This document shows, one piece after another, positions 3,020 to 18,441 of a DNA stretch of 64,000 bases. Source of the DNA: Planctomycetia bacterium (GTDB taxonomy: Bacteria; Planctomycetota; UBA8108; SXIK01); the NCBI GenBank assembly GCA_005772855.1, contig SXIK01000173.1:1-64000 (forward strand). Direction: 5' to 3'. The position numbers and the translations under genes were made by a program. Numbering within the stretch: the first letter of the stretch is position 1; each line of letters begins with the position of its first letter. The notes beneath the pieces are model-generated. The model searched no databases. It was not told where the DNA came from and saw only the letters and a program-made list of their open reading frames with translations.

Positions 3020-5620
3020 TCAAGAAGAACCAGAGACTACCTCAACAGTCGATCGCTGGGCTTGCACCAGGAGCGCTTGCGAGATCTCGTTTCGAAATTC
3101 CGGGTCCTCAACCTTCCCGCCTTTCCTGTCCGAGACGTAGAAAACGTCGTGTGCACGGTCCGTGAGAGTCGACACCTTGGCTGCGCGCACGTCAAGCCCC
3201 AGCCGATGGAGCGCTGTGGCAAGATCATACAGGAGCCCGGGCCGGTCCCCGGCGCTCACTTCGATCACACTGCACGACTCGGAAACCTGGTTGTCAAAGG
3301 TCACCTTGGGCCCAAAGAGAGGCTTCCGCCAGCGTTTCCCTCGATAGAATCTCGAACGTTGCAACATGAGGCTTTCGATCGTCTCCTGGCCCGCCTCCAC
3401 CCTGCGAACCTTCCGCCGGATGCGCATCACCCTTTCCTCAAATGGTAAGTTGACGAGGTCGGCAACTTCCACCTGAAAAATGTCGATCACGACCCCGTCG
3501 GAGCGTGAAAAGATCCTGGCCCCGAGCACGCTGAGCCCCTCGGAATAAAGGACGCCCGTCAAGTCCGCGAAAAGCCGCGGGCGGTCACCGCCGCAAAATG
3601 TAACCTCGTGATAACCTGGAAAATCCTCGCTTTCCACTTGGATGACATTGCCCGCTCGAAACTTCTCGACAAGCCCGACGTGAAGAAGCATACGCTCGGG
3701 CAACACCTCCCTCGCATATCCGGGCGTCCCCATGAGACGACAGTGCTCCTGGATGCGACGGCTCTCGTCCTCCTGTAGGCCAGCGGCCAAGAGCACGACA
3801 TCCAGATTCTCCCCGCGGGCGGCGCCCCTACGAAGGAAGATCGAGGTTCGTTCGTATACCTCCGCGAGCTGCGCCCCTTTCCACTGCGTCCACGTTCCGG
3901 GCCCCACGGAAACGATGTCGAGGTAAGTGAGCAGGTAGAGCATGTTCAAGCGTTCCTCACTCCCCACGAGACGCGCAAGCGCCTCGATCACCTTGTCGTC
4001 CTTGAAATCAAGGAACTCACTTACACGAAAGAGCTCAAGGTGATGGTAGATCAGAAAGTCCACGGTCTCGATGGTCTTCGTATCGAGACCCAGGCGTTCG
4101 CAAATCAAGGTGGCCGCCTCCGTGCCACTAACGGAATGCTCGCCCGGGATGGCCTTGCCGACATCGTGGAGAAGCAAGGCCAGGCGGAGCGGTAGGTGAT
4201 CCTTGATCTCGGAGAGAATCTGCTGAAACTGCTTTTCCGCGTAGTCGGGGGTCTCGATCTTGTCGAGCTCCTCCAGTGTCTTGAGCGTGTGCTCGTCAAC
4301 TGTGAACTGGTGGTGTCCGTCGAAATTGACAAGGCAGTCCAGCTTTCCAAACTCCGGCAGAACCCGGTCGAGGAATCCTGTGGCGTGCATCGTCTTCAGA
4401 ATCCTTCCCACGTGTTTTCCCCTGAGGAAAGACCGAAACCCCCACGAGACCTCAGGAAGGTGGGCGAAGTCAACATCCAGACTCACAAGCCGCCGACGGA
4501 CCCAGCTGCAGAGAGACTCGCTAATCCTGGCATCCCGCTCCTGCGCGATGGAGAAGATCTCGAGGATAGTCTCCGGGGTAAAGCTCTCTGGACGCTTCTT
4601 CGCCAGATAGAGCCGTCCCTTGTAAAGAGAAAGGTAAGGATTGACGCTCTTCGCTCGAAACCATCGCAGCACTCGTTCAATTCGGCTGTCGCCGCGTGTG
4701 TCAGTCTGGAGATAAAGTCGCAGAAACCGGTAGACGTTGCGCGCGTGACGGTAATAGTCTCCCATGAGCTTCTCAACCGCGGATTGGTCACTGGCGCCGT
4801 CTCCATAGCCCAGATTTCTCGCGATCGAGAGCACACTATCGCGCTCAAGAATATCCTGGCGCACATTGTTCACGAAGTGGAGTTCGCAACGCAGGCGAAG
4901 GTAGAAGGCGTAAGCTGCCCTCAAGCCCTCGACTTCTTTCCTCGAGAATCGGTTCAAGGAGAGGAGGCCATCGAACCCGCTGCCTTCAGCCCGCATGTCC
5001 TCAATCCAGAGGACTCGCTGGATGTCGCGCAGACCACACATGCCTTCCTTGACATTGGGCTCGAGGACGTAAATGGTCCGGTCCGGTGGATCGACCGATT
5101 GCCTCAGCAGGGCAAGCTTCGATCTGATGAAGCGGTCGCTTTGGCGACGCCGGTAGCGCTGAACGGCCCTGAAGCGGAACTGCAAGTACAGCTTCTCGCT
5201 TCCCGCAAGGTAACGCGACTCGAGCATTGTGTTGGCAGTGGTGAGGTCGTCCAGCATGAACTGAAGGCACTCCTCGGGAGTCCGGACGGCGTGGCCAAGC
5301 TGGGCGCCACTGTCCCAGAGGTTGAGCACCAGCTTGCTGATGGCGTCTGAAGCGCTGTTGCCCTTGCGCAAGAAGAGGATGTCAATATCGGACTGAGGGC
5401 AAAGCTCACGGCGACCGTAACCTCCGACAGCGACGAGCGCGACATTCTCCTCCTCTCCGCGAAGGTATTCCGCAGAGAGCCGCGCCAGGAGAGAGTCAAC
5501 TGCCGTTGACAGGGACGCCGTGACGGTGAAAGGGTCGTCGCCGGAGCGATGACGCTCGAGGGCTGCCTCCCGAATTTGGGAAAGCTCGGATCGGATGGAC
5601 TGCGCAGAAAGAGGAGGCAT
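3020..5620 (-). CDS. glnD: Bifunctional [protein-PII] uridylyltransferase/uridylyl-removing enzyme
   Basis: Glutamine sensor of 866 aa that uridylylates PII at low glutamine and removes UMP at high glutamine. Domains in order: nucleotidyltransferase with GGYGRREL (66-73) and SDIDIL (77-82); helical linker; HD phosphohydrolase domain starting near HHQFTVDEHTL (436-446) with metal-binding HD in LLLHDVGKA (about 482-490); and two C-terminal ACT domains (roughly 690-760 and 795-866) that bind glutamine. Length matches the family. It is the first gene of glnD-glnB-amt, 41 bp ahead of glnB. The start is at the ATG at 5620, divergent from the EboE-like gene. Confidence 0.96.
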   Translation of the reverse strand: MPPLSAQSIRSELSQIREAALERHRSGDDPFTVTASLSTAVDSLLARLSAEYLRGEEENVALVAVGGYGRRELCPQSDIDILFLRKGNSASDAISKLVLNLWDSGAQLGHAVRTPEECLQFMLDDLTTANTMLESRYLAGSEKLYLQFRFRAVQRYRRRQSDRFIRSKLALLRQSVDPPDRTIYVLEPNVKEGMCGLRDIQRVLWIEDMRAEGSGFDGLLSLNRFSRKEVEGLRAAYAFYLRLRCELHFVNNVRQDILERDSVLSIARNLGYGDGASDQSAVEKLMGDYYRHARNVYRFLRLYLQTDTRGDSRIERVLRWFRAKSVNPYLSLYKGRLYLAKKRPESFTPETILEIFSIAQERDARISESLCSWVRRRLVSLDVDFAHLPEVSWGFRSFLRGKHVGRILKTMHATGFLDRVLPEFGKLDCLVNFDGHHQFTVDEHTLKTLEELDKIETPDYAEKQFQQILSEIKDHLPLRLALLLHDVGKAIPGEHSVSGTEAATLICERLGLDTKTIETVDFLIYHHLELFRVSEFLDFKDDKVIEALARLVGSEERLNMLYLLTYLDIVSVGPGTWTQWKGAQLAEVYERTSIFLRRGAARGENLDVVLLAAGLQEDESRRIQEHCRLMGTPGYAREVLPERMLLHVGLVEKFRAGNVIQVESEDFPGYHEVTFCGGDRPRLFADLTGVLYSEGLSVLGARIFSRSDGVVIDIFQVEVADLVNLPFEERVMRIRRKVRRVEAGQETIESLMLQRSRFYRGKRWRKPLFGPKVTFDNQVSESCSVIEVSAGDRPGLLYDLATALHRLGLDVRAAKVSTLTDRAHDVFYVSDRKGGKVEDPEFRNEISQALLVQAQRSTVEVVSGSS

Positions 5621-9769: not shown

Positions 9770-12700
9770 TCAATTGTCCCCCGGTTCCGCCACGCTATCG
9801 ATCTCCTCCTCGTTTTGTTCCGAAACGTAGATTCCGCGTTTCAGATCGTGCTTCTTGAGCAGATTCGAGAGCTGAGGTCGGTGAACCCCGAGTTCACGCG
9901 CAGCGTGCGTAATATTCCCGCCTGTCTTACGAAGAGTCGTCTCAATCTTGTGACGTTCGAGGATGAGCTTGGCTTCGCGGAGAGTAATCTGCGGTTCAAG
10001 CAATGCTATCAACTCGTTCAAGACCTTGCGATCGTGCGCCTCTGGCAAGAGCCGCCTCCGCAGCTCAAAGTAAATCTCAGCACCCTGATGGAAACGGTTA
10101 CTGGCCGACAGAATCTCCATCGGAACAGTGACCCCGACACGGGCTGCCAGCTTGTCCCCCACCCTGGCGGCAATTTCGTTCTGCGCGCTCAAGTCAGACT
10201 CGGCAAGAAGCACACTCAGTACGGGAGCCCCCCAACAAATCGCCGCCTCGTGGGGCAGAAGAGTGACAAGGTCTCTTGCCAATTCCTGCGCAAGCTCGGC
10301 GCGACCCTCCCCAATCGCCTCATCGAGTTGGGGCAAGTAATAGCCCAGCAAGGTGAACGACTTGCCGTGCAAATTGAACCAGCGATACGCCTCCTTGAGC
10401 CGTTCAAGAAAGTAGCTCGCCGTGTAAAAACCGGTAACCGGCTCGCGAACCGCGATCTCAAGCTCTCGGCGATTGGAGAGGGCCACTGCCGCATGCTGTG
10501 CGAAGGTCTCCAGGAGCGATTGATTCCTCGGCAGGAATTGCCCCACAACAACTGGCTTGTCGAGGTAGACACCGCCGAAGATGCGCTCGTCCGTCATGAA
10601 CGGAACGACCAATATTGAGCAGTGGCTCAAGGCACCCAGAGTCAGGCCCCGCTCCTGCTTCTCAGGCTTTTGGCTCGCCTCGGGCTTCTCCGACGTGAGC
10701 TCCCCGCCGCCGGTGGCCAGGATTGAGCGACCACGTTTCACGGACTCCTGAGCAATACCGCTGGCCGCCTGATACTCGGGATGCTGAAGCGGGTCCTTTC
10801 CGAACCCGTGAAAAGCCACCGGGAAGTACTGGCGGTTTTGGACCCGCAAAATGAAGCCGCGGTCAGCCCCGGCCAGATCAACGGCCTCGCCAAGTACACG
10901 GTCGTAAAAATGGAGTTGGCTCAGCTCCGAATGAACTCTCAAGATGCGCGTCGCCAAGTCCTTGAAGTCGGAGAACCCAACCGGGCGGTCCTTCTGGCCA
11001 GAAGAAGCCTGCGGCTCACGGACCTCAGCAGGCGGACTCGTCGTTGCACGGCCCAGAGCATCCTTTCGGAAACGCGCCAAGTCCTCCGCGAACGTCTTGC
11101 GCCTGCGATCCTCGAAGTACCGGGCCGAGCGGTCTTCCGTGAGCCTTTCCCCTGTCTGTTTCAGAATCAGCTCTGCTTTTCCGTAGTAGTTGGCAGCCTC
11201 CGCGAACTCTCGCTGCGAATGGCACACCTTCGCGAGCGAATAGTAGAGCTGGAACAGCGTCGTCACGTCGCTAATCTTCTGACTCAGCTCAAGCGCCTTG
11301 TGAAGAAATTCTCGAGCCTTCTCGATATTTCCTCCCTTGAGGAAACGGTGGATATTCCCTTTGATCGTTAGCGCTCGGACCTGCAAGTCGAGCGCCTTGA
11401 CCTCTTCAGCAATGAGTTGGCCTCGAGAAGCGTACTTGAGCGACTCATCCAGAAGCTCACGGACAAGCTTCATCTCGGCAAGATCAAGGAGGGCCGAGAC
11501 TTCGCGGCGTCGGTGCCCCAGCTTGCCGTGCACCTCTGAAGCGAACTTCAAACTTTTCTCGGCGGCGTTCCAGTCGCGACCAAGAGCCTTGAGGTTCCCC
11601 TCGAGTAAGGCACCGTCGGCCTCCTGCGAGCGCAGCTTGAACTCTGTCGCCAGAATCGAGACCTGCTTCGAGTAGACCTCGGCCTCCTTGAGGTCGCCGA
11701 TCTCCAAGTGGACTCGACCCAACTGACAAATACCTTCGACGAGCCCCCGGGTCTCCCCCAGTTTTTGGCTATTGTCAATTTCCCGGCGAAAGTATTCGAG
11801 CGACTTCTCGTATCGACCCAGGCGGAAGTAAAGGTCGCCCAGGATCACGGACGTAGGATTCTGCCCAACGAAGTCCCCGATCCGCTCCTTCAAAGCCAGA
11901 CTGCGGTTCAGGATCTCGATCGTTTTCAGGTAGTCACCGCTCCGCAGATAGACTCGTCCAAGCTCGTCGTAAGATCGACACAGACCTGGCAAATCATGCT
12001 GGCGCCGCCGAATCTCAAGCGACTTGTACAGGTATCGGGCCGCGCGGAAGTGATGGCCTCGCTCGAGATAAACTCTCCCCAGCTCGTCCAGCGCTCCCAC
12101 TGAGGCTTCCTTCAGCCCCAACCGCTCAAAAGCATCCAACGCGCGCTCGTAGTTGTCAACAGCGTGAGCGTAGTCGCCCTTTCTGTAAAAGGCGCTCGCC
12201 ATGATACGGTAAATCTCGCCAAGCTCTGGCACGTCACCAATCTTTTGGCAAATGCTGGCACCGTTAAGACTGAAATTGATCGCACGCTTCAAATCTTGCC
12301 GCTCCAGCCGCATCCGGGCGGTGGCCAACTGTAGGCGAACACCCAGGCGGGTGTTCTCATCCTTCAGGTGCTTGGAAGCTTTCCCCAGAATCTTCAGCCC
12401 CTTCGCAGGATCGGTCAGCCGGGCAGCCTCGGCCTCGAGGAGCACCAATTCGACCTTGCGCTCCGAGCTCAACTCAGCACCCCCCTCTGTCTGCGTCCGT
12501 CTCAGAATTTCCTCCGCGGCTGGCCCAGCCTTGAGCGCAAGGCTGATTCGGGCCGTCTGCTCAAGGATCTCGAGCCGCTGAGCTTTGTCTTCTGGCGCCG
12601 AGAGCAGTTCGATCATGCGGTACTGGACTCGACGAGCCTTCTCAAGTGCAAAGGCACGCACAAAACGCTGAACCGCGATACGGCCGTGGGGTATCGAGCT

Positions 12701-14683
12701 CTGAGGCTCAAGCCCACGACGAAGGTGATAGTAAACTTCGAACGCGGCCTCATCGCTCTTGCCAGCAAGCTTCGCCCGGTACTCCTCGCCGACCCTCTGG
12801 TGGAGAACCCTTTTCTGTTCGACAGGAATGGCCTCTTCGACCACCAGAGCGTAGTCCCAGAGCCGAAAGAAGTACGAATCGCCAGGCGATTCGTGGCGCT
12901 CGACAATTCCTCGATCCTCGAGAGCGACTAACGCCGACGAAACAGAATCGACTGGGCTCGCGCCGTCGAGAGGGGGAGCATCGAAAAGTCCCTCGAGCAC
13001 ATGGCGGAGCAGCGTCGGCGTGACGGGACGACGTGCCGTCGCCATGGCCTGGAGCACACGCAACTCGTTCTTCGTGGCGCTGGACAGGCGAAGTCGCACA
13101 ATGGCGTGGCGTCGTCTCAGGGGTTGGCCATCGTCGGGAAAGTCAATGCGGCCAAGCGGCAACGCCGGGCCCGGGGAAACCATGGGGTCGGTACTGGAGA
13201 ACGAGGGTACGGTGAGGAACGACGCCAGCGCCTCAACAATCGACTGGCCGCTCCAGACGCTCAGGGGATCCTCCCCAGGACCGATCGACCTGTCAAAAAC
13301 TCCTTCCCCGAGGTAGAGCGCCCGAAGAAGCTCCTGCATGAAACTGGGAAACCCTTCGCTGGCCTCGAAGATCGCGTGGACCAGATCTGGTGAAACGCGA
13401 ACCCTCATGCCTCCGACCTCTACATCCTGAAGACACAGCGCAAGAAACTGCTCCGCCTCCGAGGCGTTGAGCGGTCGCAATTCGCCGTGGTACGCGAATG
13501 GCTGCTCACCGAGCGCCCTCAAGGCCTGCTCGAGGTAATGGGCCTCGTTGACAAAGCCCCGATAGTTCGCCAGGATCATCAACCGAGCACCTTCGGCTGG
13601 CTTGAGGTGGCTTGTTGTGGCTGCTGCCTCCAATGACTCCGACCCCTTCACAGTTCGGACATCCTTGTCGATGGCGGCCGAAGCAGCCAAGGGCATGAGT
13701 GCCGAGCCTGCCGGCTGGGGAGAGCGACCCCACCTTGCCTCGCCGCGAGCAACCCCAGGGGGAAACGCATAGTACGGAACCCCCAATAGCTCCTGAGCGC
13801 TTGCAGTGCTTCGGGTCAAGGCTCGCCATTCGTCGCCTTCGAAGTCATCAAGCTCGGGGCCAGCTCCAATGTCGGCCAGAAGAACGGAGCCCCCCAGACC
13901 TCCAGCAGCTCCCGGCGACTCAACGGGGACCTTTTCTTGAGTGTGAAGGTTGCGCCCGATGTAGTCCAGCAACTCGATCGTTGGCAAATCGCTCCAGTGC
14001 AAGTCGTGCACGAGTATGAGAAGCGGCTTGTAAGCGGTCACCTCCAAGAGTAGCTGTGTGATCGCTTCAAAGATACGAACCTTCCCTGCCTCATCGAATT
14101 CGATCGTGCCTCCAGCCTCCATGCTACCGGTACTCTTCGGCATCACCATCGCCTGAGCCTCGCCCGCGTCGGCTCCATAGAGCTCTGGCATTACACTCTC
14201 GAGCCCGTAGCGATATTTCTCCTGAAGAGCGGCTCCCTGGCTGTGATCCCGCAGGATCTCACGGATGGCGTGAAGAAAGGGCTTGAAAGGGATGCCTTCG
14301 ACGTCGTGGTGGTTCACCTCATAGACGGAGATCCGCTTCTGGCTCGCATTCTCACGGAACTGGCGAAAAACGCGGGTTTTCCCGATGCCGTCGGCTCCGC
14401 GGTAAAGGAGAATGTGCTTCGCGTCTTCCGCGTGATCCTGGACTTGCTGCGACTTTGGGCGGGAATCCACGGGAGGAATGGCAAACTTTCTGCCAGCACC
14501 CTGGGAGTCCCTGACCCCGGCAGAAGTCCGCTGAAACCTCGTTCGAAGCAGCGCTTGCCGCGCCTCGGAGGAAAACAGCTCGTCGAAGAACGTCCGCATG
14601 AACAGCGCTTCCAGGCCAACACGCTCATCCTCTCGGAACTGGAAGCTGGTCGGAAAAGGGAATCTGTCTAAAGCTTTATCCAT
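9770..14683 (-). CDS. Large signalling ATPase with TPR, GAF, degenerate GGDEF and Fis-type HTH domains
   Basis: A 1637-aa cytoplasmic regulator. Order: AAA/STAND ATPase with Walker A GADGIGKT (96-103) and Walker B LLILVHDLHWSD (221-232); a low-complexity Gly/Ala-rich insertion at about 251-365 splitting the ATPase; winged-helix-like region to about 620; TPR array about 820-1180 (repeats such as ELGRVYLERGHHFRAARYLY); GAF domain about 1245-1405; a GGDEF-like segment 1413-1545 that keeps EPVTGFYTASYFLERL but has WGAP in place of GGDEF; and a Fis-type helix-turn-helix about 1565-1612 (GGNITHAARELGVHRPQLSNLLKK). It likely integrates a small-molecule signal and binds DNA. Related proteins often carry an N-terminal kinase domain; none is visible here. 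It follows the yihY gene by 32 bp, probably in one transcript. Confidence 0.85.
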   Translation of the reverse strand: MDKALDRFPFPTSFQFREDERVGLEALFMRTFFDELFSSEARQALLRTRFQRTSAGVRDSQGAGRKFAIPPVDSRPKSQQVQDHAEDAKHILLYRGADGIGKTRVFRQFRENASQKRISVYEVNHHDVEGIPFKPFLHAIREILRDHSQGAALQEKYRYGLESVMPELYGADAGEAQAMVMPKSTGSMEAGGTIEFDEAGKVRIFEAITQLLLEVTAYKPLLILVHDLHWSDLPTIELLDYIGRNLHTQEKVPVESPGAAGGLGGSVLLADIGAGPELDDFEGDEWRALTRSTASAQELLGVPYYAFPPGVARGEARWGRSPQPAGSALMPLAASAAIDKDVRTVKGSESLEAAATTSHLKPAEGARLMILANYRGFVNEAHYLEQALRALGEQPFAYHGELRPLNASEAEQFLALCLQDVEVGGMRVRVSPDLVHAIFEASEGFPSFMQELLRALYLGEGVFDRSIGPGEDPLSVWSGQSIVEALASFLTVPSFSSTDPMVSPGPALPLGRIDFPDDGQPLRRRHAIVRLRLSSATKNELRVLQAMATARRPVTPTLLRHVLEGLFDAPPLDGASPVDSVSSALVALEDRGIVERHESPGDSYFFRLWDYALVVEEAIPVEQKRVLHQRVGEEYRAKLAGKSDEAAFEVYYHLRRGLEPQSSIPHGRIAVQRFVRAFALEKARRVQYRMIELLSAPEDKAQRLEILEQTARISLALKAGPAAEEILRRTQTEGGAELSSERKVELVLLEAEAARLTDPAKGLKILGKASKHLKDENTRLGVRLQLATARMRLERQDLKRAINFSLNGASICQKIGDVPELGEIYRIMASAFYRKGDYAHAVDNYERALDAFERLGLKEASVGALDELGRVYLERGHHFRAARYLYKSLEIRRRQHDLPGLCRSYDELGRVYLRSGDYLKTIEILNRSLALKERIGDFVGQNPTSVILGDLYFRLGRYEKSLEYFRREIDNSQKLGETRGLVEGICQLGRVHLEIGDLKEAEVYSKQVSILATEFKLRSQEADGALLEGNLKALGRDWNAAEKSLKFASEVHGKLGHRRREVSALLDLAEMKLVRELLDESLKYASRGQLIAEEVKALDLQVRALTIKGNIHRFLKGGNIEKAREFLHKALELSQKISDVTTLFQLYYSLAKVCHSQREFAEAANYYGKAELILKQTGERLTEDRSARYFEDRRRKTFAEDLARFRKDALGRATTSPPAEVREPQASSGQKDRPVGFSDFKDLATRILRVHSELSQLHFYDRVLGEAVDLAGADRGFILRVQNRQYFPVAFHGFGKDPLQHPEYQAASGIAQESVKRGRSILATGGGELTSEKPEASQKPEKQERGLTLGALSHCSILVVPFMTDERIFGGVYLDKPVVVGQFLPRNQSLLETFAQHAAVALSNRRELEIAVREPVTGFYTASYFLERLKEAYRWFNLHGKSFTLLGYYLPQLDEAIGEGRAELAQELARDLVTLLPHEAAICWGAPVLSVLLAESDLSAQNEIAARVGDKLAARVGVTVPMEILSASNRFHQGAEIYFELRRRLLPEAHDRKVLNELIALLEPQITLREAKLILERHKIETTLRKTGGNITHAARELGVHRPQLSNLLKKHDLKRGIYVSEQNEEEIDSVAEPGDN

Positions 14684-14715: not shown

Positions 14716-16089
14716 TCAATTGTGTAGCAGCGATTGGGGTGCACTTTGCGGCAGCGCCAGCAGATCGGCCAGCGTTTTTCCCAGGAATGCCCCAATGTAG
14801 CGAGAATGGGCTTCGTCAAGAAGCGACCTTGACGCGAGCTGGTGTGCCGGCACCCGCGTCATGCCCGAAGCACCCGGAGCATACCCAAGAACGTCAGATT
14901 GGAAGAGTTCGACAACGTTCTCCAGTCGAATCAAACTTGGATCTCGAGCCAGGGCGAACTCACCCGGCCCACCGGCATTCGCAACCAGCACTCCGGCATC
15001 CGCAAGCTTGCGAGCCACTTCTTCCACCTGGCTCGTCGGGATTGAAAGTTCCGCCGCTACAACGGAAGCCTGCGGCAGAGATTCGCCAGCCTTGAAGGCA
15101 CGGCCAATGCGCTCCAGGTAGTAGATAGCGACATGATGCTCGGCGACTATTCTTGCGTGAATAGAGCTCTTCACGAACTCCTCGCTGAGTCGACCAGAGT
15201 TTTGGTGCGCGTAGGCAAACTCACAACCCCAGAGCACAATCGTCCAATTCAGGTACACCCACACCAGAAAAAATGGGACGATCGACAGAGTGCCATAAAG
15301 CGAGGTCGCAGCGCTGGACCAATCGAAATAAACCTTGAATACGCCTTTCGAAGTCTCCCAAAGTGTCGCTGCAATGAAGGCTCCAAACGCCGCGCTCTTG
15401 CAATTCACATGGGCTTGCGGCAGATATCGGTAAAGCAGAGTCAAGCCCAGGAACCCCAGCGTCAAGGGCACAAGAAATCCGTAAAGCGCCTGAAGCAAGA
15501 GCGATGATTGAGTCCAATGGTCAATGATTCCGCCCCGGGGCACGAGCCAGTCTCCGACCCACAGCGTGGTAGCCATGAGAAAGGGACTCAACGTGAGGAT
15601 CGCCCAGAAGGTGAGCGCCTTTTGAATATAGCTGCGCCTGCCTTTGACCTTCCATAGCCGATTGAAAATCCTCTCGGCAGCATTCAGCCCGCCCATGGCC
15701 GCGCCGACCAGGCTCGCAAGGGCCAGTATCCCGACAATGCCTGCGGCCTTGTTCTGGAAGGCCTTCCTCGAAATGTTCTGCTCCAACCAGACTGAAAGCT
15801 GTTGCTGAAACGAGGGGGCGAGTCGCGGAAAAACATTCTCCTTCACGTACTCGATAAACTCGTCCCCCTTTCCGAACTGCACCGCAATCCCCAGAAGTAA
15901 CACGCTGAGCGGCATCAGCGAGATGACGGTGGCAAAGCTGAGCGTCGCGGCTCGCTCAAAGCAAAAATCCCTCCCAAACTCGCGAGCGGCGAGCCAACAC
16001 ACCTTGGCACTTCTCAGCAATGCACCCCGCAGCCCTTTGAGGCTGGAGAGGCGATTGGAGAAGAGCCAACCTCTGAGAAAGGAGCGCAA
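14716..16089 (-). CDS. YihY/virulence factor BrkB family membrane protein
   Basis: Inner-membrane protein of 457 aa. The N-terminal 290 residues contain about six hydrophobic helices and BrkB/YihY hallmarks: ERAATLSFATVISLMPLSVLLLG near the start, FNRLWKVKGRRS, and LFLVWVYLNWTIVLWGCEFAYA at the end of the membrane part. Once annotated as RNase BN, the family has no settled function. The C-terminal 150 residues look like a winged helix (SVVAAELSIPTSQVEEVARKL). Upstream is about 1.1 kb of non-coding DNA; downstream, after 32 bp, lies the large ATPase regulator. Confidence 0.88.
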   Translation of the reverse strand: MRSFLRGWLFSNRLSSLKGLRGALLRSAKVCWLAAREFGRDFCFERAATLSFATVISLMPLSVLLLGIAVQFGKGDEFIEYVKENVFPRLAPSFQQQLSVWLEQNISRKAFQNKAAGIVGILALASLVGAAMGGLNAAERIFNRLWKVKGRRSYIQKALTFWAILTLSPFLMATTLWVGDWLVPRGGIIDHWTQSSLLLQALYGFLVPLTLGFLGLTLLYRYLPQAHVNCKSAAFGAFIAATLWETSKGVFKVYFDWSSAATSLYGTLSIVPFFLVWVYLNWTIVLWGCEFAYAHQNSGRLSEEFVKSSIHARIVAEHHVAIYYLERIGRAFKAGESLPQASVVAAELSIPTSQVEEVARKLADAGVLVANAGGPGEFALARDPSLIRLENVVELFQSDVLGYAPGASGMTRVPAHQLASRSLLDEAHSRYIGAFLGKTLADLLALPQSAPQSLLHN

Positions 16090-17287
16090 GTTCTTTACTC
16101 GACCAAGCAGCGCGAAAAACGAAGTGCGCCATCACTTCCAATTTTCCACGTGGGTTCAGCCAGGGTCCACCAAGCCATTGGAGTCGTCAAAGGATACGTG
16201 CTCTCAACGGCGCTGTGCAGCAAAAATCTTACCCGGGGCAAGTCCAGGAGCGCCCCGACCCGCCACGCCCGATCCCACTGAGAGAGCACACCAGCTCCGA
16301 GAATAAAAAATCTCCTCATCGTCCCTACTCGATGAGGAGCTTGTTTGGGTCTGAAATAAACGAGGAAAAAGAGGGACCTACCGTGAGTTTGTAGGGAAGG
16401 GTAGGCTTAACCAATAATCATCAATAAATTTGGAAGGTGACTCGCAACGACCACTATTTATTCGGGACTTTCTTGTGGCCCCACAGGCCGCTGCCGGCCA
16501 TGGACCTTATCATGCCACGAAAAGAAGCTTTTGCTGTCCTCTTCCCAGAGCACACGAGAGCTTCGCTTGAAATCCGACCAAACCACACCGAAATCTTGCG
16601 CTACCAACCTCGAGAGACGAGTGCGGGATCACGTTGACCGAAAGACACTTTTTCCCATCGAAAAACACACCTCTCGGTCGAGAGAAAACCAAGAAAAATC
16701 CGATCCGGCGGAAACCATTACCATGGCGATAATCGCCAATATTCTCTATACGGCAAAGATTGGGGCGCCCTGGTCAACACTCCGCATTATCGGTGCCGCA
16801 GGCGCCCGCCGCCTGTCCAGAACCGAGTGGAGAGGGGACGCCACCAGGCGTCGGGTGCGGGAGAACTCTCCCCCCGCAAGGAGTATGTCTTTTCTCAATT
16901 GCCTTCTTCAACCTTCGATACCATGTTCTCTCTGCGACCAGTGACGGAGGTGTAGCATGCAGGAAGGCGAAAATCAAGCTAATTGTTCGCAAAACTATTT
17001 TCTTGGGTTATCGGTACCTGACAGCTCATTCCAAGATCCCCATTCCGCCGCGCCGGGGCCCTGCTACGGAATCTTGAGACGGGCCTCAAGTATCAGCATC
17101 AGCACTCCAACCCTTCAGTTGACAAAAGTCTCCCGGAGAGGCAAACAGCGCGTCTCGAATAGAAAACCACCGCGGCTCGTCCAATGATTATTCGCCTCGA
17201 TCTGAAGACTCTTTGCTTTCCGACACCGGAATGTCCTTGCGGCCGCCAATGGAAATCGTAACAAGAGGTTTCTTGAGCAAGCTATCC
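16090..17287. other. Long intergenic region with one repeat copy
   Basis: About 1.2 kb between the divergent yihY and ECF sigma genes. The only structure I can support is repeat copy F at 16741-16887. The rest is more A+T-rich than its surroundings. The listed short ORFs lack ribosome binding sites or motifs and look random. A TTGACA box at 17119-17124 has no convincing -10 partner. Confidence 0.6.
16741..16887 (-). repeat. Interspersed palindromic repeat, copy F
   Basis: Read on the minus strand, it begins ATACTCCTTGCGGGGGGAGA, has the GACGCCTGG and GGGCGCC middle blocks, and ends with a diverged core (GACCAGGGCGCCCCAATC). It is the most decayed of the six copies; the first half is close to copy A. 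Confidence 0.65.
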
Positions 17288-17911
17288 ATGCGCGACCCAT
17301 CTGACGCCGAGGACATTGAAAAAGTGGAGGAGTTCCTGGCCGGCGACCAGCGAGCCTTCGAGTTCTTGTTCGACAAGTATCGCGAGAAGGTCTACCGAAT
17401 CGCGTACCGGTTCGTTCGACACAAGGAAGATGCCCTCGAGGTGGCCCAGGATGTTTTTTTTCGTGTCGCCATGAGTCTCGACAAGTTCAAGACGGATTCA
17501 AAATTTTTTACCTGGCTATATCGGGTAACCGTCAATCGCTCCATTGACTTTACAAGGCAAAAAAAATCGAGGCCCAGGCAGAATTTGGACCCGGAAGTCC
17601 TCGAGACTCGTTCTGACGCGGGATATGGTCGAACTCAAGAGCGTTGTCCCTCTGAACTGGCAGAAGGGAAAGACACTGAACGTCTTCTCGCGAGTGCAGT
17701 CTCCAAGCTGACCGAGAAGCATCGTGCCACGTTTTTGCTCCATGCTGTTGAAAACCTGTCTTACAAGGAGATTGCCTCGGTGCTCGACTGCAGTATCGGG
17801 ACCGTGATGTCTCGACTCTTCTACGCCAGGAAGAAGCTGCAGGAGATCCTGGGGTACGGTGGGCTGGAATCACCAGGTCGCGGTCGGATTATTGGCAAGA
17901 CACACACATGA
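17288..17911 (+). CDS. RNA polymerase sigma factor, ECF (sigma-70 family)
   Basis: ECF-type sigma factor, about 207 aa from the ATG at 17288; the ORF extends to a TTG at 17213 with further ATGs at 17231 and 17249, so the start is uncertain. Region 2 is seen in GDQRAFEFLFDKYREKVYRI and DALEVAQDVFFRVAMSLDKF; region 4 in LTEKHRATFLLHAVENLSYK and IGTVMSRLFYARKKLQ. The last codons overlap the next gene by four bases (ATGA), which encodes its likely anti-sigma factor. It probably directs RNA polymerase to an envelope- or stress-related regulon; target genes unknown. Confidence 0.94.
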   Translation: MRDPSDAEDIEKVEEFLAGDQRAFEFLFDKYREKVYRIAYRFVRHKEDALEVAQDVFFRVAMSLDKFKTDSKFFTWLYRVTVNRSIDFTRQKKSRPRQNLDPEVLETRSDAGYGRTQERCPSELAEGKDTERLLASAVSKLTEKHRATFLLHAVENLSYKEIASVLDCSIGTVMSRLFYARKKLQEILGYGGLESPGRGRIIGKTHT

Positions 17912-18441
17912 GCTCAAGGAAGAGTCACATGAACGCAAACGTTGCTTGCAAAGACATCGTGTGGAAAATCGGGCCGTTCGTGGATGGTGAACTACCGACC
18001 GATGAGAGGGCGGCAGTTGAAGAGCACATGGTCAATTGCAATGACTGCGTGCAAATGGCAATTAATTTTCGGCAACTCGATGCACTCGCCGCGAAGGATT
18101 CAGTTCCGCCCGTAACAGGGGAAGAGTGGTCCCGCCTCTGGCAAGGCGTGATGGCCAGGCCACATGAACCCATAAAGTCCGAGGCAATCTCATGGCCTCG
18201 CCCATCAAGCTTCAAGTATTGGATCGTGCCCTCCCTCTCAGCGGCCGCAGCGGCACTCATTGGCTTTACGATCGGCTCCCTCTATTTCAGTGGCCCGGGG
18301 CAGCTCAATCCTTCGAATCGACACAAACCGATGACTGAGTCTGGCGGCAACGGCACCGCGGCTCTGCCTACTGGGTCAGAGCCCCCGGTGGAAATCGAAG
18401 ACGAAGTGTTCAGCATCAAGCCTTCCAAGCCGCCCAAGTAG
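17908..18441 (+). CDS. Zinc-binding anti-sigma factor (ZAS type), membrane anchored
   Basis: A 177-aa protein whose start overlaps the sigma factor stop (ATGA). The N-terminal 60 residues match the anti-sigma zinc domain, with the HxxxCxxC motif (HMVNCNDC) that binds the cognate ECF sigma. One transmembrane helix (WIVPSLSAAAAALIGFTIGSLYF) is followed by a short Pro/Ser-rich periplasmic tail. The model for the family is that release or proteolysis of this protein frees the sigma factor. Position and motif make the pairing convincing; the signal is unknown. Confidence 0.88.
   Translation: MSSRKSHMNANVACKDIVWKIGPFVDGELPTDERAAVEEHMVNCNDCVQMAINFRQLDALAAKDSVPPVTGEEWSRLWQGVMARPHEPIKSEAISWPRPSSFKYWIVPSLSAAAAALIGFTIGSLYFSGPGQLNPSNRHKPMTESGGNGTAALPTGSEPPVEIEDEVFSIKPSKPPK

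Follow-up and report, generated by a model that had tools for sequence, protein, structure and literature searches.

The window analysed here, a 64,000-nucleotide stretch of contig SXIK01000173.1 from a Planctomycetia bacterium (GTDB lineage Planctomycetota; UBA8108; SXIK01), encodes a one-protein signal-transduction transcription factor with the domain chain AAA_16-TPR-GAF-dead GGDEF-Fis HTH (helix-turn-helix). Its GGDEF domain has lost the enzyme's signature residues, yet it remains intact, is subject to purifying selection and occurs in every genome of the class (29 examined). It holds the place taken by a sigma-54 AAA+ ATPase in paralogs from the same genomes. This pseudo-GGDEF domain is probably not an enzyme but a signal-coupled dimerisation or relay domain in a transcription factor devoid of the sigma-54 motor.

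Domain Chain of the Regulator

Read from 14683 to 9770 on the minus strand, the gene encodes 1637 aa. The open reading frame outlined by the initial annotation, which left the strand unstated, is real, and a single ortholog is present in each of the 29 class genomes. The chain begins with an AAA_16 (STAND-like) ATPase domain at residues 84–246 (13946–14434, minus strand, as for all domains; Pfam 2e-11), which is followed by a TPR array at residues ~788–1190 (11114–12322; Pfam TPR_12 3e-33, plus other TPR models). In the Pfam searches this succession is the one that characterises AAA_16-TPR (STAND-like/MalT-like) regulators. A GAF domain at residues 1260–1402 (10478–10906; Pfam GAF_2 2e-8) then leads to the pseudo-GGDEF domain at residues 1405–1550 (10034–10471) and to a Fis/NtrC-type HTH_8 at residues 1575–1611 (9851–9961; Pfam 1e-9), whose profile also matches ZraR, NtrC-family and Fis structures. 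The HTH is nearest to NtrC-type HTHs in both Pfam and structure profile matches. Thus, the C-terminal Fis-type HTH of sigma-54 enhancer-binding proteins (NtrC family) is present, while Pfam finds no Sigma54_activat AAA+ domain in the regulator, though its paralogs have one.

A GGDEF Domain Hidden from Single-Sequence Searches

Searched alone, residues 1405–1550 match zero Pfam families, and the sole single-sequence hint is an NCBIfam match to DgcA, which is weak (E = 0.056). The Pfam GGDEF model reaches only 2/29 orthologs in single-sequence searches, weakly, and fails for the window protein. The initial annotation, which had read a GGDEF pattern in these residues, therefore caught something that annotation misses. 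Being invisible to Pfam alone, such cases are probably under-counted.

Family-level comparison gives a different picture. A profile built from 10 order-level orthologs matches the GGDEF proteins 7e6g (1.1e-7) and 6zxb (1.3e-6) in the PDB. With hhalign, the order-level domain profile aligns to 15 true GGDEF sequences at 98.7% (E = 3e-16), and orthologs from other families, which are more diverged, do so independently at 94.1% (E = 1.3e-7); control profiles of GAF and TPR score 0.1–14%. An AlphaFold model of the GAF-X-Fis region, of moderate confidence (pLDDT 83.5, pTM 0.54), finds diguanylate cyclases and PelD in Foldseek, with GGDEF structures such as 4urs aligned at TM 0.69 over 145 columns (rmsd 3.2). 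When the domain of a distant ortholog was modelled separately, 22/22 matches below 1e-3 were GGDEF proteins. Traces of the ancestral motifs also survive among relatives: one (L050) retains EPLTGLYN at the domain start, and most of the distant families retain GGDH at the motif position. The GGDEF identity of this segment exceeds chance, and both the profile and the fold are those of the GGDEF superfamily. The profile search and structure comparison that the initial annotation had called for thus bear out its degenerate GGDEF domain, with a GAF sensor on one side and a Fis-type HTH on the other; the lack of structural similarity to GGDEF folds that would have spoken against it did not appear.

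Loss of Enzyme and Ligand-Site Residues

In the hhalign alignment, the first metal-binding Asp position is occupied by Tyr1449 and the second by Pro1451, the GG(D/E)EF motif is replaced by G1485-A-P-V-L1489, and the RxxD I-site stretch coincides with a 5-residue deletion. The hairpin there has a conserved W-G-x-P pattern (W1484/P1487). Pro1451 is invariant in 29/29 orthologs, and the metal Asp and substrate residues are gone in all of them. Hence, the regulator domain has neither the GG(D/E)EF motif and metal-binding Asp of an active diguanylate cyclase nor the RxxD I-site of a PelD-type receptor, and the loss of catalytic signature proposed from the sequence is confirmed at Tyr1449, Pro1451 and GAPVL. 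With both the A-site and the I-site gone, any ligand must bind in a new way. In distant families, the GGDH motif persists with an invariant Asp, so residual nucleotide binding is possible there.

Paralogs and Origin

The same genomes encode paralogs with the order kinase-AAA_16-TPR-GAF-sigma54 AAA+ (L185), a terminal Fis HTH being confirmed in a second protein of this type (L186). The domain order is alike, but the regulator lacks the kinase, and the dead GGDEF domain replaces the sigma-54 AAA+ ATPase. Proteins of GAF-GGDEF-sigma54 AAA+ type also occur in other Planctomycetota families (L166, L168, L169, L170 and L177); four of them are giants that carry CBM9 and HAMP modules. Most of the GGDEF motifs inspected in this group have degenerated, but that of L177, a protein with a terminal Fis HTH, is nearly intact (SGDEF). 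As in the regulator, GAF and then GGDEF precede a transcription output module in L166, L168, L170 and L177; unlike it, these proteins retain the sigma-54 AAA+ domain, and most carry HAMP/CBM9 inputs. The simplest candidate histories are a module swap or descent from a GAF-GGDEF(-sigma54)-Fis ancestor.

Comparison with Known Systems

MabR, of the PucR family, forms dimers and tetramers; immediately ahead of its HTH it has a GGDEF fold that lacks the catalytic and inhibitory motifs (PMC11617747). No specific function had been reported for the GGDEF-like domain of this family (PMC7652997). PucR/CdaR regulators such as MabR (GGDEF_2, PF17853, plus HTH_30) resemble the regulator in that a sensor and a Fis-like HTH flank a dead GGDEF fold. 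The regulator differs in a domain that derives from canonical GGDEF by profile, in an NtrC/Fis HTH (HTH_8) and in an AAA_16-TPR-GAF sensor. Judged from these sequence comparisons, its dead GGDEF domain apparently arose separately from the PucR/CdaR family. PelD, in turn, has a GAF domain followed by an inactive GGDEF domain and is a structural match in Foldseek, but it keeps an intact I-site, through which its degenerate GGDEF binds c-di-GMP (PMC7112168), and is not DNA-binding, whereas the regulator lacks an I-site and carries a C-terminal HTH. The regulator shares a principle with PucR and PelD but lacks the defining features of either family, and a literature search for the same architecture returned nothing nearer than the PucR family. 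The initial annotation had mentioned neither the MabR precedent nor the sigma-54 AAA+ ATPase at the same position in the paralogs.

Retention, Selection and Competing Explanations

A class-wide search found exactly one strong GAF-X-Fis ortholog per genome in 29/29 genomes, and a low-sensitivity scan for wider occurrence returned three loci, all from Planctomycetota MAGs. Were the pseudo-GGDEF domain a mere relic or spacer from a GAF-GGDEF ancestor, without a specific role, its divergence would be expected: when the order is compared with the remainder of the class, no other domain is so dissimilar (16% identity vs 21–52% for the others), and its signature residues vary between lineages. Against this, omega in close pairs is mostly 0.01–0.2, comparable to the other domains of the regulator and about equal to or below that of GAF, length and fold are kept, the domain occurs in every class genome, and within the order the domain is 58% conserved vs 50% for GAF. 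Moreover, at the order level 10/12 former active-site positions are invariant vs 20/123 positions elsewhere (p = 4e-6); the same test in other families is not significant (p = 0.10). Given the low omega and these invariant positions, the domain, at least within the order, is not a remnant undergoing decay, and a relic is an improbable account of it. A PelD-like receptor, which would bind c-di-GMP or another nucleotide and relay its occupancy to the HTH, is a little less improbable. Canonical GGDEF domains occur in 29/29 class genomes, so c-di-GMP is probably made; the GAF plus degenerate GGDEF layout is that of PelD, whose structures are among the Foldseek matches; and the order has conserved the surface of the former active site. 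However, the RxxD I-site on which PelD depends (PMC7112168) is deleted or lost here, together with the metal-binding and GGDEF residues. The initial annotation had offered a nucleotide receiver and a structural relay as alternatives; with the A-site and I-site gone, the former is less supported, and the relay fits both the purifying selection and the universal retention.

That the domain might still be an active or unusual cyclase, as its fold and the partial GGD in one family group could suggest, has a negligible probability, since not one of the 29 orthologs retains the metal Asp and substrate residues. Membership of the regulator in the PucR/CdaR family is very unlikely as well: the local order of sensor, dead GGDEF fold and Fis-like HTH is similar (PMC11617747), but the Pfam search gives zero PF17853 matches, and HTH_8 fits the HTH at E 1e-9 to 1e-10 vs only 0.05 for HTH_30, which is not the best HTH model. 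Likewise, hhalign gives 0.3% against a small CdaR alignment, a weak set that itself reaches canonical GGDEF at just 4.3%, vs 98.7% against canonical GGDEF.

Proposed Mechanism

In the relay role that we favour for the pseudo-GGDEF domain, the ATPase/TPR and GAF parts would sense a signal. In GAF-GGDEF cyclases, the GAF exit helix runs into the GGDEF domain, and the AlphaFold model likewise predicts that the GAF exit helix of the regulator (helix 146–173 of the model) continues straight into the pseudo-GGDEF domain. With this connection, the pseudo-GGDEF domain most likely transmits a change of the sensor dimer to the paired HTHs, and it may thereby set how the two HTHs are spaced or oriented. 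NtrC-type activators rely on their AAA+ motor for the usual opening of sigma-54 promoters. Lacking this motor, the regulator cannot use that mechanism and should instead act at housekeeping or ECF-type promoters or, at enhancer sites, as an antagonist or repressor. We infer this role; the conserved former active-site pocket fits a ligand-binding role as well, which counts against a relay.

Gene Neighbourhood and a Linked Structured RNA

The gene 32 bp upstream of the regulator (14716–16089, minus strand) is its probable operon partner and encodes a membrane protein that we take, from sequence recognition, to belong to the YihY/BrkB family. This yihY-like neighbour is kept in 12 loci (window included) across three family groups, as well as at the contig end of one further genome (G007). 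On the other side lies a divergent ECF sigma factor/anti-sigma pair (17213–18441, plus strand). The yihY-regulator-ECF arrangement is preserved within the order; the YihY link also reaches other families of the class. An 866-aa open reading frame near the regulator (3020–5620, minus strand) appears to resemble a GlnD-type uridylyltransferase.

A conserved structured RNA of ~100 nt, recognised by a covariance model, lies at 16305–16406 on the minus strand of the window, and also at the loci L042, L044, L046–L048, L050–L054, L056–L069 and L215. It is composed of hairpin P1 (ACCTACC...GGTAGGT), a pyrimidine-rich stretch ending in TTTCAGACCCAAAC, and hairpin P2, which in the order is followed by a terminator-like T-run. 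The two loops are complementary, the P1 loop CCCTAC pairing with the P2 loop GTAGGG. In an alignment of 25 sequences, 98.1% of cells are standard pairs vs at most 48% in slid controls, and 7 pairs carry two-sided changes, including one in the loop-loop helix, where TAC/GTA becomes TGC/GCA. The covariance model finds the RNA in 29/29 class genomes, usually as one strong copy, with zero matches in 273 other genomes sampled from the phylum, and no Rfam family matches it. Second, weak matches (E 2e-4 to 2e-3) occur in four genomes of one genus (G013, G014, G019 and G021; for example L218 and G014:C30:62289-62385), as possible diverged copies or chance.

The RNA lies upstream of the regulator or of the yihY-regulator pair in 27/28 judgeable genomes. 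In the exception (G003), the RNA stands alone beside an ECF sigma gene, apart from both the regulator and yihY, and the gene that comes after it is convergent. This arrangement points to a separate small RNA gene, and the RNA is apparently a separate transcript; a riboswitch or leader is disfavoured on the same grounds. Upstream of the regulator gene lies a shared dyad, CYCRYCG-N8-CGRYGRG. It was considered as an autoregulatory Fis operator and rejected, because its centre AGTAGGGA is constant and asymmetric, its arms change in compensating pairs, and the dyad is in fact the last hairpin of the RNA.

Significance

Taken as a whole, the data allow a tentative scenario, which we hold to be possible although rather doubtful, in which a GGDEF cyclase module was recruited separately from the PucR family, replaced the sigma-54 ATPase and now serves as a relay or a sensor of a new ligand, while the regulator and the class-restricted RNA form one regulatory unit kept class-wide. 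To the question of what dead GGDEF domains do when placed before DNA-binding domains, the regulator adds an apparently independent case, present in 29/29 class genomes and set apart from its paralogs by a module swap, and offers a comparison in which a relay role for such domains may be tested.
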